Shown here: in pieces, positions 14,062-51,010 of the stretch
Layout: every line of letters begins with the position of its first letter
Position numbering within the stretch: the first letter of the stretch is position 1
Assembly: GCF_029338255.1 (NCBI RefSeq)
Contig: NZ_CP119787.1
Coordinates: 682,001 to 746,000 of the forward strand
DNA length: 64,000 nucleotides
Origin: Haloarcula halobia
Lineage (GTDB): Archaea > Halobacteriota > Halobacteria > Halobacteriales > Haloarculaceae
Direction of reading: 5' to 3'
Translations under genes and position numbers: made by a program
Notes under the pieces: generated by a model
What the model was told of the DNA's origin: nothing
What the model saw: only the letters and a program-made list of their open reading frames with translations
The model's database searches: none

Positions 14062-14366
14062 CTATCGACCGGCGGCTACCGACGACCGGCTCGCCACGTA
14101 CAGCGAGTACGTGAGTATCGCGAACCCGACGGCCGTGAGCGCACTCTCGGCGACCAGCGCCGTCCCCGTGTCAACGGCGAGCAGCTGGTCCGCGATACCC
14201 GCCGACAGCGACCCGGCGGTGACCGTCCCGAATCCGACGGCCAGCCACCGCAACGGCCGCGTCGACGTCTTGACCGCCGCGGTGGCGGCGACGTAGGTGA
14301 CCAGGCCGGCCAGCAGGAGCGTTACCGTCTTGAGTACGACGACGAGTGGCGTGATGGCTGTGTCAT
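14062..14366 (-). pseudogene. DUF7521-like small membrane protein with a broken or unusual start
   Basis: The frame ending at TAG 14062 encodes three hydrophobic helices: TPLVVVLKTVTLLLAGLVTYVAA, then WLAVGFGTVTAGSLSAGIADQLL, then ALVAESALTAVGFAILTYSLYVA. This is the small membrane family that haloarchaea place directly after a winged-helix gene. The expected start is the ATG at 14366, overlapping the upstream stop as ATGA. That ATG, however, opens a different frame that stops after 14 codons (MTQPSRHSSSYSRR). The membrane frame has no ATG or GTG of its own; the first possible start is a TTG at 14253, after the first helix. A frameshift just after the ATG, a sequence error or an unorthodox start are the options. 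Confidence 0.65.
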
Positions 14367-14725
14367 AGTTCCTCGCTGATGCGCGACCAGAGTCGCGCCA
14401 GCCGTTCGTCCGGCGACTCGCCGTCCCGGACGACGTCGACCGCGAACGGGTCGTCGCCGTCGACGGCGACGAAGACCCCCGAACAGTCCCGAACGTAGGT
14501 GGTCTCGTGGTGGCCGTCGGACCGGACCGCCGTCCGCTCGTCGACGAGTGCGGCCTCGCTCAGCTGCTGGAGCTTCCGGTACGTGCTCGTCTGTGGCAGG
14601 TCACAGTCCGCCGCGACGGCTTTGGCTGGCCGGGGCTCGTCCAGCGCCGTGAGGATGGCCCGGCAGTCCGGGTCGGCGAGGGCTTCGAACACCGCTTGTC
14701 GGTCTATCGACGCGTCGTCTGACAC
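14363..14725 (-). CDS. Winged helix-turn-helix transcriptional regulator (paired with DUF7521)
   Basis: A 120-residue ArsR-like regulator from GTG 14725. Helices VFEALADPDCRAILTAL and AKAVAADC, then the recognition helix LPQTSTYRKLQQLSEAALVDE, precede a wing and a short C-terminal domain (DGHHETTYVRDCSGVFVAVDGDDPFAV). It overlaps the next gene by ATGA, so the two are a coupled pair. The same pair occurs at 40435-41171, and the two regulators align along their whole length. No effector site is evident. Confidence 0.82.
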   Translation of the reverse strand: MSDDASIDRQAVFEALADPDCRAILTALDEPRPAKAVAADCDLPQTSTYRKLQQLSEAALVDERTAVRSDGHHETTYVRDCSGVFVAVDGDDPFAVDVVRDGESPDERLARLWSRISEEL

Positions 14726-38834: not shown

Positions 38835-39013
38835 CGTCACCGACGCTCCCGTCCGATAAACTCGCTCGACGCACGGGACCCTCGCATACCTACTCTGAAG
38901 TCGAGTCCGGCCCCGAAATAAAGACTCCGCCCGCGTAATCAAAGACGATAATCCAGCAGGCAGTTTTATACGGGGCTGTTTCCCTACGTTCTGGTACGTA
39001 CCCGGGAGCACCT
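38835..39013. promoter_or_regulatory. Divergent promoter region between cheB operon and cheW
   Basis: This is the only AT-rich patch inside the che region. TTTATTTC on the minus strand (about 38922-38915) is a TATA candidate for the cheB operon, with a leader of about 60 nt. TTTTATAC (38963-38970) serves cheW, again with a short leader. Both motifs are stronger TATA boxes than the T-run type seen elsewhere in the window. Confidence 0.5.
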
Positions 39014-39448
39014 ATGTCAGCACAGTCAGGCACGACCGGCCAGGTCCTCGAGTTCAAACTCGGGACCGAGACCTACAGCGTGAGTATCGACTACGTGACC
39101 GAGATCGTCGACGTCGGGGAGCTGACGAAGGTCCCCAACGCGCCGTCGTACGTCGAGGGCGTGATGGACCTGCGCGGTCGGACGACGTCTATCGTCGACC
39201 CGAAGGCGGTCTTCGGCCTCGACGACGACGGCGAGGGCCGTCGAATCATCGTCTTCGATCCGGACATCGTCCAGGAGCAAAGCGCCGTCGGCTGGCTGGT
39301 CGACGAGGTGTTCCAGGTCGTCCAGGTCGACCCGGAACAGGTCGACCGGTCGCCGGGCGACGACGCCGGGTCCATCCGCGGGGTGGTCAAGCGTGACGAC
39401 GACTTCGTCATCTGGGTGGATCCGGCCGTCGTCCACGCTCGTGACTGA
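39014..39448 (+). CDS. cheW: Chemotaxis coupling protein CheW
   Basis: A 144-residue protein with the SH3-like CheW fold (VLEFKLGTETYSVSIDYVTEIVDVGELTKVPNAPSYVEGVMDLRGRTTSIVDPKAVFGLD). It couples membrane receptors to CheA. The NAPSYVEGVMDLRGR stretch is the receptor/CheA interface. It is divergent from cheB. The C-terminus (DFVIWVDPAVVHARD) is normal for haloarchaeal CheW. Confidence 0.94.
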   Translation: MSAQSGTTGQVLEFKLGTETYSVSIDYVTEIVDVGELTKVPNAPSYVEGVMDLRGRTTSIVDPKAVFGLDDDGEGRRIIVFDPDIVQEQSAVGWLVDEVFQVVQVDPEQVDRSPGDDAGSIRGVVKRDDDFVIWVDPAVVHARD

Positions 39449-39553: not shown

Positions 39554-40279
39554 ATGATTCAACTCACACAGACGGGCATCGACGGACTCGACGACATCCT
39601 GAACGGCGGTATCGTGACCAACTCGACGACGCTTGTAAGCGGGAACCCCGGGGCCGGGAAGTCGATCCTCTGTCTCCAGTACATCTACAACGGGGTCGAC
39701 CAGTTCGGCGAGAGCGGCATCTACCTCACGTTCGAGGAGAACGCGTCCGACCTCCGGGAGGCGGCCGAGTCGCTCGGCTTCGACAAGTGGCCGGAGTACG
39801 TCGCCGACGGGAAGATCAAGGTGTACGACAAGCAGGAACTCCTGCGCGAGAACGACTTCTCCTCGTCGATCGATCTCCTCCTGGACGACCTTGAGGACGA
39901 CCAGTACGACCGGCTCGTCCTCGACTCGCTTGCCATGTTCGAGCTCTTTTTCGACGACGAGATGGAAAAACGCACGTACCTCCTGAAGTTCACCGATATC
40001 CTCCGGGAGAACGGGTTGACATCGCTGATCACCAACGAACAGGGATCGACGTTCCCCGACACCGACATCGGCCTCGCGAACTACCTGACCGACGGGAACA
40101 TCTATCTCATCCAGACCCCGACCGACTCCGGCGTGAACCGGTACGTCTGGGTCGCGAAGATGCGCAAGCAGAACATCGAGACCGACATCTTCCCGATGGA
40201 GATCGACTGGGGTGGCATCCAGATCCACCCCAGCGCCAGCGCCTTCTCGATGATGGGCGAAGGCGACCCCCCAATATAG
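39554..40279 (+). CDS. KaiC-like RecA-superfamily ATPase
   Basis: A 241-residue single-domain KaiC-type ATPase. The opening TGIDGLDDILNGGIVTNSTTLVSG leads to the Walker A loop GNPGAGKS (30-37). The paired glutamates in LTFEENASDL and the Walker B strand DRLVLDSLAMFEL are present. It is related to ArlH but lacks the ArlH partners next to it. Placed between cheW and the archaellin with a wHTH gene downstream, it may regulate archaellum expression or assembly; that is inference. A T-run (GATTTTTG) about 45 nt upstream is the likely promoter. Confidence 0.85.
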   Translation: MIQLTQTGIDGLDDILNGGIVTNSTTLVSGNPGAGKSILCLQYIYNGVDQFGESGIYLTFEENASDLREAAESLGFDKWPEYVADGKIKVYDKQELLRENDFSSSIDLLLDDLEDDQYDRLVLDSLAMFELFFDDEMEKRTYLLKFTDILRENGLTSLITNEQGSTFPDTDIGLANYLTDGNIYLIQTPTDSGVNRYVWVAKMRKQNIETDIFPMEIDWGGIQIHPSASAFSMMGEGDPPI

Positions 40280-40434
40280 GGCCACATTTCCAGATTATTA
40301 TCCAGTGAAATGGCCGTCTTGTTGCCTCTAGAGTGTGATTTGCGCTGAATCGGCGTTTCGACGAATCACGGTGTTTTCAGCCGGCTATCATCGTCGATAG
40401 TTTTATTATCGGAAAAATTCATGTTTTGATAACG
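40280..40434. promoter_or_regulatory. AT-rich promoter region before the wHTH gene
   Basis: The 155-bp gap has TTTTATTATC at about 40400-40409 and an A/T-rich stretch (GGAAAAATTCATGTTTTGATAACG) just before ATG 40435. The TATA-like motif lies ~30 nt upstream, giving a nearly leaderless transcript. Confidence 0.5.
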
Positions 40435-40770
40435 ATGTCTTCAGCGGATATTCTCCAGACTCTGGGGAACAAATACAGCGCCGAGATACTCGACGCGACC
40501 GACGAGCCGGTGTCGGCTCAGGAGCTGAGCGACGAGCTCGGTATCCCGATCGCGACCTGTTACCGTCGCATCGACGAACTGACCGAGCACGACCTGCTCG
40601 AACTCCACGACAACATCCTCTCCGACGACCGCCGCCGGATCAAAGTCTACCGGCGGAACGTCGACCAGGTCTGTGTCGACTTCGAGGAGGAACTGTCGGT
40701 GAACGTCGAGGAACGCTCGGAAGTGACGAACAAGCTCGACGAGGCCTGGCGAACGCTCTCCGACGGCTAA
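40435..40770 (+). CDS. Winged helix-turn-helix regulator preceding the archaellin region
   Basis: A 111-residue ArsR-like regulator: ILQTLGNKYSAEILDATDEPVSAQELSDELGIPIATCYRRIDELTEHDLLELHDNILSDDRRRIKVYRRNVDQVCVDFEEELSV. It aligns end to end with the wHTH at 14363 (TSTYRKLQQLSEAALV matches ATCYRRIDELTEHDLL). The next gene, 119 nt away, is a small three-helix membrane protein of the same type that follows the other regulator. Its position upstream of the archaellin makes it the best local candidate for an archaellum-expression regulator, functionally akin to EarA in methanogens. Confidence 0.85.
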   Translation: MSSADILQTLGNKYSAEILDATDEPVSAQELSDELGIPIATCYRRIDELTEHDLLELHDNILSDDRRRIKVYRRNVDQVCVDFEEELSVNVEERSEVTNKLDEAWRTLSDG

Positions 40771-40889
40771 CGTCCTTCTCGAACCCGCTCTCGTCCGTCG
40801 ATTCCCCGGTATCATCGCTGTCGATTCGGTTATCACGATAGATATTTTCGTGCGTGGATTTAAGACCGGTCTTCCTGTATCGCAGTGTA

Positions 40890-41171
40890 ATGCCGGTAAT
40901 CGAACTTCTCTACGCCATCACGACGCTGGTGTTCGTCGTCGCTGGCCTCACCATGGTCGGGATGGCGATGCGAGCGTACGTCCAGACATCACGGGATGCG
41001 ATGCTCCACCTCTCGCTTGGCTTCTCGCTCGCCGTCGCGGGCGCAGCGGCCACCATGATCAGCGCGTTCATCAACGACTTCGAGGGCGTCAAGTCGCTGC
41101 TCCTCGTCAACAGCGGACTCACGACCTTCGGCTACCTGTTCGTGATGTACAGCCTCATCACGTACGAGTGA
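40890..41171 (+). CDS. Small three-helix membrane protein (DUF7521-like)
   Basis: A 93-residue protein with hydrophobic segments IELLYAITTLVFVVAGLTMVGMAM, MLHLSLGFSLAVAGAAATMISAF and LLLVNSGLTTFGYLFVMYSLIT. The end (GLTTFGYLFVMYSL) corresponds to ALTAVGFAILTYSL in the other copy at 14062, so both belong to one family that accompanies wHTH regulators. It may anchor or sense for the regulator; no residue suggests an enzyme. This copy has a normal ATG start. Confidence 0.8.
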   Translation: MPVIELLYAITTLVFVVAGLTMVGMAMRAYVQTSRDAMLHLSLGFSLAVAGAAATMISAFINDFEGVKSLLLVNSGLTTFGYLFVMYSLITYE

Positions 41172-41435
41172 ACGCGCGTGCGGGGTGGAGAGACAGCCGG
41201 CTACCGCGCTCTGCAAATCGTTTTCACGCGTGATTTCGAGTCAAGCGACGATTTCACCGCTGAATCGAGCGCGTACATCTCCACTCGAAACGAACCTGGT
41301 TTCCGGCCCTCTACTCTGAAATTCTGACTGTTTCAAGCGCTGAAAACTCCGTTATCAGTACAGATATTTCGGGGGGAGGTCTTATTACCGACGACCCAAA
41401 CGTTTCTGGTAGGGTCAGACAGACCCGGAATATCC
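41172..41435. promoter_or_regulatory. Archaellin upstream region, 264 bp
   Basis: No gene is seen. It is AT-richer than the surroundings. CAGATATTTC (41361-41370) and CTTATTAC (41381-41388) are TATA-like; the latter would place transcription start near 41410 and leave a 25-nt leader before ATG 41436. A purine-rich GGGGGGAGG (41371-41379) sits between the two candidates and may be a BRE or a regulator site. Confidence 0.45.
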
Positions 41436-42056
41436 ATGTTCACGGAACACAACGACGACGACCGCGGGCAGGTCGGGATCGGCACGCTCATCGTGTTCAT
41501 CGCGATGGTGCTTGTCGCCGCAATCGCCGCGGGCGTCCTGATCAACACCGCCGGCTTCCTGCAGAGCAGTGCCGAGGAGACCGGGCAACAGAGCAGTGAC
41601 CAAGTGACGAACCGCGTCGAGGTTGTCAATGCGGTTGGTACGAATATTGACAACGGTGCGAACACGGTCGACCGCGCCGAGATTACCGTAAAGAAGGCAC
41701 CCGGTGCGGGGAATATCGACCTCGGGGCGACTATCGTTCAGTACGTTGACTCGTCTGGCTCCTACGATCTCACCCAGGGTGGTACCACTACGTCCGATGC
41801 CAGCCAAAGTGCATTCGCCGTCACGAGTATTCAGGATGAAGACGGGAGCAATCCTGTGCTGAACGACGCTTCCGACCGCGTCAAAATCGTTCTTGACCTT
41901 GGCGAAATCAAATCCCAAAGCACGAACAACGCCGGGAACGGCCTCAGCGAAGGCGAAACCGCGACGGTCCAGATCAACACCCAGTCCGGTGGTACGACTG
42001 AGGTCCGCCTGGTCGTCCCGGAGACCCTGTCTGGCAGTTCCGCCGTCACGCTGTAA
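41436..42056 (+). CDS. arlA: Archaellin (archaellum filament protein)
   Basis: A 206-residue filament subunit. The class III signal peptide [11 protein letters not shown] is cut after the glycine by PibD/ArlK; the mature helix [32 protein letters not shown] packs the filament core, and the outer domain is beta-rich and Ser/Thr/Asn-rich. No N-X-S/T sequon occurs anywhere in the chain, unusual for haloarchaeal archaellins, which are normally N-glycosylated. Codon choice is looser than in nearby genes. It is the only archaellin in the window. Confidence 0.95.
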
Positions 42057-42134: not shown

Positions 42135-42701
42135 ATGGCACAGGGGTCAGACGAGGGCAACCCGGAGGACGGCAAGATTCTCTCCCCTGAAGAGCTCGAC
42201 ATCGCCGACGACGAGCACGTGACCCAGCTGGACGAGAGCCGGTACGTCGTCTCCTCCGACGTCCGGACAGAGGACTCGCCGGGCACGCAAGCGACGCCGT
42301 CGCCGGACCCCGAACCCGACCCGGAACCGGAGCCAGACCCCACGCCGGAATTCACTGACGCGAACGTCCACGAGTGGCTCGCCGAACAGATGGACGAGTC
42401 GAACGCGCGCTACGGCTTCGACGTGACGGCGAAGTTCGACGGCGGCGTCGACCAGCAGAAGCTCGTCTCGAACGACATCGTCACGGTCTTCGAGAGCCTG
42501 CTGCTCTGGTACGCCCGGCAACTCGACGGGTCGACGCCCGTCGAGGAGGTGCTGGGGATCCTCCTCACGCAGTCGAACGTCCCGGTCCGGTACCCCTCTT
42601 CGACCATCCGGGACCTCGTCGAGTCGACGAACCTCGGCCCGGACGACACCATCGCGGACCTCATGGCGGCCGTCGACGACGAGGACGGCCTCGAACTCTG
42701 A
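42135..42701 (+). CDS. Acidic haloarchaeal protein of the archaellum region (DUF7500-like)
   Basis: A 188-residue soluble acidic protein. The N-terminus has DGKILSPEELDIADDEHVTQLDESRYVVSS, a short motif I associate with a haloarchaeal family (DUF7500, from memory). A Pro/Asp/Glu spacer (PDPEPDPEPEPDPTPE) follows, nearly identical to one in ArlCE (PEPEPEPEPDPTPA). The C-terminus is helical (NVHEWLAEQMDESNARYGFDV, VFESLLLWYARQLDG). The function is unknown. The shared spacer suggests it works in the same compartment as ArlCE, which is inference. Confidence 0.65.
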   Translation: MAQGSDEGNPEDGKILSPEELDIADDEHVTQLDESRYVVSSDVRTEDSPGTQATPSPDPEPDPEPEPDPTPEFTDANVHEWLAEQMDESNARYGFDVTAKFDGGVDQQKLVSNDIVTVFESLLLWYARQLDGSTPVEEVLGILLTQSNVPVRYPSSTIRDLVESTNLGPDDTIADLMAAVDDEDGLEL

Positions 42702-45226: not shown

Positions 45227-45331
45227 GGCGTCGCTCACCGCGGCGATCCCGCTGCCGTCAGCGGTATCACGCACGATAATTTACGGGTCAGTTTTATCTA
45301 TCTAATCCGGGTACCTTCGGACCGATAGGTC

Positions 45332-47433: not shown

Positions 47434-47682
47434 CGGTAGGCCATCGCACGTCGAGTGGCCCCGTGCCGGCGGCGCGTCAGACAGACGGCAGTCGGAAGTC
47501 TGCCGGCCACGCGGGCGTCAGACGCAAATTACTGCGCTAATTCTCTGGAATAATTTCTGGGCGGGGAGATCCTATCCAAGACGATAAAATTAAGAAAATC
47601 CCCATCGAAAATTACGGTTTGTTATCAACTGTGATACGCTAGAGGGAACATTCAAGGGTGTTTGCCGACATGGTTACAGACG
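47434..47682. promoter_or_regulatory. Promoter region of the archaellum motor operon
   Basis: This is a 249-bp gap without a gene. It is clearly AT-richer from 47525 on, with GATAAAATTAAGAAAATCC (47582-47600) as the best TATA region and GGTTTGTTATC (47618-47628) as an alternative. A second start site after ~60 nt of leader is possible. No palindromic operator is obvious. Confidence 0.5.
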
Positions 47683-49796: not shown

Positions 49797-50252
49797 ATGG
49801 CGAGCGTCTCTGCCTCCCATCTCATCATCTTCATCGCGTCGATGATGATCGCCGCCAGCGTCGCCGGCGTATTCACCGACAGCGTCGGCCAGCTGAGCAA
49901 CGCGCTGTCCGAACAGGGGTTAGACGTCAGCAGCGACGTCCGGACCGACGTCGAGATCATCTCGGACGCCGGGAGCGACGCGATATACGACACCGGCACG
50001 GAGAATATCACCCTCCACGTCAAGAACACCGGCACGGAACGGCTCGCGCCGGTCCCCGACCAGATGGATCTCTTCGTCAACGGGACGTTCATGACCGCCT
50101 ACGCGGTGACGCTGGAACCCGACGGTGGGGCGACCTGGAACCCCGGAGACGTGGTCCGCGTCGAGATATCCGTCCCGGGGCTGTCGACCGGCGACCACCG
50201 CGTCAAGATTATCGTCAACGGCGACGAGGAGGTGTTCGAGTTCAACCGATGA
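49797..50252 (+). CDS. arlG: Archaellum stator protein ArlG
   Basis: A 151-residue protein with an N-terminal membrane helix ([20 protein letters not shown]) and an outside beta-sandwich ([30 protein letters not shown]). Two N-X-T sequons (NIT, NGT) suggest exposure to glycosylation. It works with ArlF as the stator. It starts one base after the arlF stop and overlaps arlH by 4 nt. Confidence 0.92.
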
Positions 50253-51010
50253 GCCTCGCGAGCACGGACCTCTTCTCGCTCGGACTGGAGGGCCACGACC
50301 GATTGAACAAGGAACTGGGCGGGGGCATCCCGCCGGGCAGCATCATCCTCGTCGAGGGCGACTACGGGGCCGGGAAGTCGGCGCTGAGCCAGCGGTTCAC
50401 CTACGGCCTCTGCGAGGAGGGCCACGAGGTGACCTACCTCTCGACGGAGCTGACCGTCGGGAGTTTCCTAGACCAGATGCACTCGCTGTCCTACGACATG
50501 GTCAACCACATCCTGGACGAGCAGGTCCTCTTCTTGCACGCCGATATCGGCGACTCCAACACCTTCTCGGGGGGCGACCAGGAGGAAGAGCGCAAGGAGT
50601 TGCTGCGCCGGTTGATGGAGGCGGAGGTGATGTGGAACAGCGACGTCGTCGTCATCGACACGTTCGACGCCATCCTCCGGAACGACCCCAAGTTCGAGGC
50701 GCTGGTCCGTCAGAACGACGAGCGACAGGCCGCCCTGGAGATCATCTCCTTTTTCAGGGACGTCATCTCCCAGGGCAAGTGCATCATGCTGACGGTGGAC
50801 CCCTCGACGCTGGACGAGGAGGCCATCGGCCCGTTCCGGGCCATCGCGGACGTCTTCATCGAACTGGAGATGATCGAGGTGGGCAACGACGTCCGCCGTC
50901 AGATCAACGTCCTGCGATTCGCCGGGATGGGCGAACAGGTCGGCGACACCATCGGCTTCTCGGTGCGGTCGGGGACTGGTATCGTCATCGAATCGCGGAG
51001 CGTTGCCTAG
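50249..51010 (+). CDS. arlH: Archaellum ATP-binding protein ArlH
   Basis: A 253-residue RecA/KaiC-like protein. The Walker A loop is GDYGAGKS (37-44) and the Walker B strand is [10 protein letters not shown]. It forms a ring with ArlI at the motor base, and nucleotide occupancy of ArlH is thought to regulate assembly. The ATGA overlap with arlG shows coupling. Confidence 0.94.

Follow-up and report, generated by a model that had tools for sequence, protein, structure and literature searches.

The three genes situated between cheW and the archaellin gene in the 64-kb stretch of Haloarcula halobia DNA analysed here (henceforth called the window) very likely represent the Haloarcula-group form of the CsmR/CirA archaellum switch, extended by an additional membrane component, DUF7521. 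All three genes are encoded on the forward strand and comprise cirA (39554-40279, +), coding for a single-domain KaiC-family ATPase of 241 aa (PF06745, E 7.4e-49, 166.6 bits), csmR (40435-40770, +), coding for a winged-helix (wHTH) DNA-binding protein of 111 aa (PF12840 HTH_20, E 7e-13), and a DUF7521 gene (40890-41171, +), coding for a protein of 93 aa with three predicted membrane helices (PF24365, 33.7 bits versus a cut-off of 27). This island is bounded upstream by cheW (39014-39448, +; PF01584) and followed by arlA, the archaellin gene and predicted CsmR target (41436-42056, +; PF01917, E 1.8e-34). An initial annotation of this DNA had placed a KaiC-like ATPase, a wHTH protein and a membrane protein at this position, and the Pfam searches bore out this description.

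The gene order cheB-cheW-cirA-csmR-DUF7521-arlA was found again throughout the Haloarculaceae, and the arrangement of the trio is hence not a matter of chance. Cluster order differs between families, which might suggest that the three genes are chance neighbours or an unrelated cassette inserted into the che-arl cluster, but this reading is scarcely credible given the order shared across the Haloarculaceae, the 75 genomes from several families in which csmR is linked to ArlH, and the conservation of the shared promoter sites described below. A DUF7500 gene (42135-42701, +) follows arlA in the window and is retained within the archaellum cluster of many haloarchaea; in Haloferax, the DUF7500 gene adjoins csmR and appears to be hvo_1208.

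The wHTH and KaiC parts of the switch have already been published (June 2026, PMC13286277) and are therefore not new. In brief, Haloferax volcanii CsmR (hvo_1209) is a wHTH protein encoded upstream of arlA1 and arlA2, which was reported from deletion and RNA-seq to govern archaella and cell shape together with the KaiC-like CirA (hvo_1212). Deletion of csmR led to loss of motility, yet arl transcripts went up, and deletion of cirA resulted in hypermotile, permanently rod-shaped cells; by ChIP-seq, CsmR was found to bind arl promoters at the site TATCA-N4-TGATA adjoining the TATA box (all PMC13286277). CirA is required for the response to quorum-sensing medium (PMC12240190) and holds back motility with rising cell density (PMC13286277, PMC12240190). 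The archaellum control switch proposed in the initial annotation is thus supported for the wHTH and KaiC genes via their Haloferax orthologs, for which deletion and ChIP-seq showed that motility is lost, arl transcript levels change, and arl promoters are bound (PMC13286277), while the function suggested below for the membrane gene is drawn from its genomic context.

As the 80 named loci in the returned set do not include H. volcanii, orthology to this species rests on its congeners (57% identity for CsmR and 66% for CirA) and on gene order. On 12 named Haloferax contigs (L082-L093), csmR was followed by arlA, arlA, and cirA (reverse), and a DUF7500 gene was oriented divergently to csmR, an arrangement that agrees with the published map of hvo_1209 to hvo_1212 plus hvo_1208 (PMC13286277). 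In Haloferax marisrubri, where the locus order is csmR-arlA-arlA-cirA, CsmR is 57% identical to the window protein, and the product of the KaiC gene at the cirA position is 66% identical to the window CirA. The window CsmR, a small wHTH protein of about 13 kDa encoded one gene away from arlA, shares 41-89% identity with archaellum-linked orthologs and 57-59% with those of Haloferax and Halobellus. Judged by sequence and gene order, 40435-40770 is orthologous to Haloferax csmR and 39554-40279 to the Haloferax cirA located beside the archaellins, and the wHTH and KaiC genes of the window are almost certainly CsmR and CirA.

The initial annotation had also called the ATPase a relative of ArlH, which holds true in the sense of a distant relationship, CirA scoring 38.8 bits against the NCBIfam ArlH model with its cut-off of 215. 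The true arlH of the cluster is located at 50249-51010 (ArlH match), and with a score far under the ArlH cut-off and a separate ArlH encoded, CirA was rejected as a second ArlH. A KaiC relative encoded beside an archaellin gene and bearing this weak similarity to ArlH might still be taken to serve the archaellum motor as a structural or assembly ATPase rather than to act as a regulator, but such a motor role is very improbable, since CirA is missing from most archaellated genomes sampled and since its deletion raises motility in Haloferax (PMC13286277). In the CirA-carrying genomes, one match each was obtained at 1e-40 or better. The Walker A motif (GxPGxGKS; GNPGAGKS in the window protein) and the catalytic FEE were nearly invariant in about 90 orthologs; with Walker A and the catalytic glutamates intact across these sequences, ATP-driven modulation by CirA is plausible.

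CsmR was classed among the Lrp/AsnC regulators in PMC13286277, an assignment that was supported neither by our family searches (HTH_20) nor by our fold searches (Phr, ArsR types). In the family searches, 45 of 45 CsmR orthologs fell in HTH_20 and AsnC-type matches were obtained in only 8. For the window CsmR, HTH_20 was the best family, the AsnC HTH scored 16.8 bits (under its cut-off of 27), and the family search did not find the AsnC ligand-binding domain. The AlphaFold2 model of CsmR (pLDDT 83.8) had Phr of Pyrococcus furiosus (PDB 2P4W) as its first-ranked PDB fold with a TM-score of 0.71 on the query, a match noted too in PMC13286277, and this was followed by ArsR-type proteins and the Sulfolobus regulator AbfR2; no Lrp fold was present among the best 50 fold matches.

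Candidate CsmR sites were searched with the published TATCA-N4-TGATA pattern, allowing one mismatch and using the reversed pattern as control; the consensus comes from H. volcanii ChIP-seq, and the sites given here for Haloarcula are sequence matches. Five sites were found in the window versus 0.05 expected, all of them on the forward strand: TATCATCGTCGATA (40386-40399, one mismatch) upstream of csmR with a TATA-like box, TTTTATTA, close after it; TATCACGATAGATA (40831-40844, one mismatch) upstream of the DUF7521 gene; TATCAGTACAGATA (41353-41366, one mismatch) upstream of arlA, again with a TATA-like box, TCTTATTA, close after it; TATCACGCACGATA (45265-45278, one mismatch) upstream of cheY-cheC-cheD; and TATCAACTGTGATA (47623-47636, perfect) upstream of arlCE-arlF-arlG-arlH-arlI. 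The whole genome held 33 sites versus 14 for the reversed pattern, and in the 80 named haloarchaeal loci 259 sites were counted versus 3. Within a set of 100 loci, a site preceded cheY in 68 of 75 cases, cheW in 32 of 37, and DUF7521 in 33 of 47, the reversed pattern being found upstream of none of these three genes; upstream of internal operon genes (e.g., cheC, cheD, arlF), CsmR sites were not found. The gap between csmR and DUF7521 held a site (≤1 mismatch) in 27 of the 32 loci with the same trio order. A second archaellin gene, located about 3 kb before the window (L079:1501-2198; genome C1:678865-679562), has a one-mismatch site 65 bp upstream of its start. These matches point to a common DNA site and regulator for the arl and che genes of several haloarchaeal families, and the placement and conservation of the predicted sites would be hard to explain otherwise. 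A CsmR-like site with two mismatches was additionally observed at 38937, upstream of cheW, and further perfect motif sites lie elsewhere in the genome near a histidine kinase, an orotidine-decarboxylase-family gene, and a DUF7305 gene.

The distribution of the three genes was surveyed in 145 genomes of the order, 106 of which carried ArlH. Linkage to archaella in other genomes, on which the initial annotation had made its proposal depend, was observed: a CsmR homologue was encoded within 40 kb of ArlH in 75 of the 106 ArlH-bearing genomes, spanning several families. Among these 75 loci, DUF7521 was adjacent to csmR in 64, CirA was encoded within 15 kb in 34, both were present in 27, and neither in 4. 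CsmR is therefore the shared core, and CirA and DUF7521 are accessory and differently distributed. Haloferax, Halogeometricum, and Halobellus have CirA and no DUF7521 beside csmR, several other families have DUF7521 without CirA, and the Haloarculaceae as well as one large genus of a further family (f2) have both. Because DUF7521 is absent beside csmR in the three former genera, the switch can work without it.

Several genomes of the survey differed from this picture. One near-complete haloarchaeal genome carries intact csmR and cirA side by side (L053, G061:C1:2042000-2054000), and no archaellin (PF01917) or ArlH match was found in it. It constitutes an exception to the published rule that csmR is always accompanied by archaellins in Halobacteria (PMC13286277), and suggests a role of the two regulators beyond swimming, perhaps in cell shape. 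In another genome (G010), in which ArlH was not detected, csmR is interrupted by a TAG stop (C1:1514402-1514732) and cirA is partial (1507461-1507937), as if the regulators had decayed along with the archaellum. In two families (f4 and f5, including L201, G106:C1:3821000-3831000), a CsmR homologue of about 45-55% identity is unlinked to ArlH and occurs also in genomes without ArlH.

The start of the DUF7521 gene is probably the ATG at 40890 rather than the GTG at 40854, because the homology of most orthologs begins there and several of them carry an in-frame stop just upstream. The AlphaFold2 model of the protein (pLDDT 92.2) consists of three long helices (3-33, 36-61, and 67-90), and, as the PDB fold search returned no significant match (best E 1.0), no function could be derived from structure. 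The genomic neighbourhood of the family is more telling. In this genome, each of the eight DUF7521 genes has one of six CsmR-family wHTH genes upstream of it. Across 15 genomes, 59 of 67 DUF7521 genes had a CsmR-family gene no more than 900 bp away, 57 of the 59 lying on the same strand as the wHTH gene and all 57 downstream of it; seen from the other side, 55 of 92 CsmR-family genes were paired with DUF7521. For 54 pairs, the distance between two wHTH proteins correlated with that between the adjacent DUF7521 proteins (r = 0.69), whereas shuffling partners inside each genome, which controls for species relatedness, gave r values that averaged 0.06 and peaked at 0.36, none of 5000 shuffles reaching 0.69. 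The pair is thus inherited as a unit, as would be expected of interacting partners. The paired loci examined contained no fusion of wHTH and DUF7521, and the proposed contact between CsmR and DUF7521 thus rests on genomic association. A second wHTH-DUF7521 pair of the window (14098-14343, -, and 14378-14698, -) lies far from motility genes and represents a further copy of the module.

On these grounds, it is fairly probable that DUF7521 is a partner of CsmR, and its most likely role would be that of a membrane tether or sensor for CsmR, the two proteins forming a split ArnR-like regulator. The membrane protein had been presented in the initial annotation as the partner of the wHTH protein; pairing and co-divergence agree with this, although DUF7521 is missing beside csmR in the species in which the switch was worked out. 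Alternatively, CsmR and CirA might form the switch by themselves, with DUF7521 as a regulated output, e.g., a small membrane protein belonging to the motility machinery. This would fit the separate promoter of the DUF7521 gene with its predicted CsmR site and the functioning of Haloferax without DUF7521 beside csmR, but it is unlikely, as many loci unrelated to motility likewise have a DUF7521 member adjoining a CsmR-family wHTH gene, the two co-diverging pair by pair, which would be unexpected for a motility part.

Under the preferred reading, in which DUF7521 is a component of the switch, CsmR would act as a probable dimer, its site being a dyad, and would bind TATCA-N4-TGATA just upstream of the BRE/TATA element at csmR, the DUF7521 gene, arlA, the cheY operon, and the arlCE-I operon, so that filament, motor, and chemotaxis genes would switch together. 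CirA, as a catalytically intact KaiC ATPase, would tune the output of CsmR, presumably by acting on the CsmR protein. DUF7521 would most likely hold CsmR at the membrane and release it, or relay a signal to it; both the contact and its direction are deduced from gene association. Because the promoter of the DUF7521 gene itself carries a predicted CsmR site, DUF7521 would belong to the CsmR regulon and close a feedback loop. By analogy, the regulation by CsmR and CirA known from Haloferax should operate in Haloarcula halobia too. On a broader scale, we lean slightly towards the view that split membrane-bound switches pairing a CsmR-family wHTH protein with a DUF7521 partner of its own are widespread in haloarchaea, that a genome has several of them, the archaellum switch included, and that Haloferax lost the membrane half at the csmR locus.

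How haloarchaea turn swimming on and off was open before CirA and then, in 2026, CsmR were described. New here are the binding site's transfer to further haloarchaeal families and the evidence for DUF7521 as a cognate, so far undescribed membrane partner; the name DUF7521 was not found in the literature searched, including the CsmR paper (PMC13286277), nor was any description of wHTH-DUF7521 two-gene regulators. Should the pairing prove functional, a likely mechanism would be at hand for the roughly six two-gene membrane regulators of this genome, and if the switch is indeed split, most haloarchaea would steer swimming via a membrane signal invisible to work on Haloferax.

Among known systems, the closest is CsmR/CirA of Haloferax volcanii, with orthologous wHTH and KaiC genes by the archaellins and the same DNA site at arl and che promoters. 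In contrast to Haloferax, cirA and csmR of Haloarcula are co-directional after cheW, and a DUF7521 gene, for which Haloferax has no counterpart there, lies between csmR and arlA. Phr of Pyrococcus furiosus, a heat-shock regulator, resembles CsmR as the best fold match of its model and is longer (about 198 residues in the structure); Phr is not known to have a DUF7521 partner. With ArlH and cyanobacterial KaiC, CirA has the RecA/KaiC ATPase fold in common and keeps Walker A as well as the paired catalytic glutamates, but it consists of a single KaiC domain and scores far under the ArlH and circadian-KaiC cut-offs. Archaellum transcription is under the control of a winged-helix regulator in Methanococcus and Pyrococcus too, namely EarA, to which CsmR is reported to have no sequence or structural similarity (PMC13286277). 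Finally, ArnR/ArnR1 of Sulfolobus acidocaldarius (described in PMC13286277) are HTH regulators of the archaellum associated with membrane helices. ArnR is one polypeptide, whereas no frame fusing an HTH to membrane helices occurred in the loci examined and the DNA-binding and membrane parts of Haloarcula are encoded by two genes; the likeness drawn here is one of architecture.
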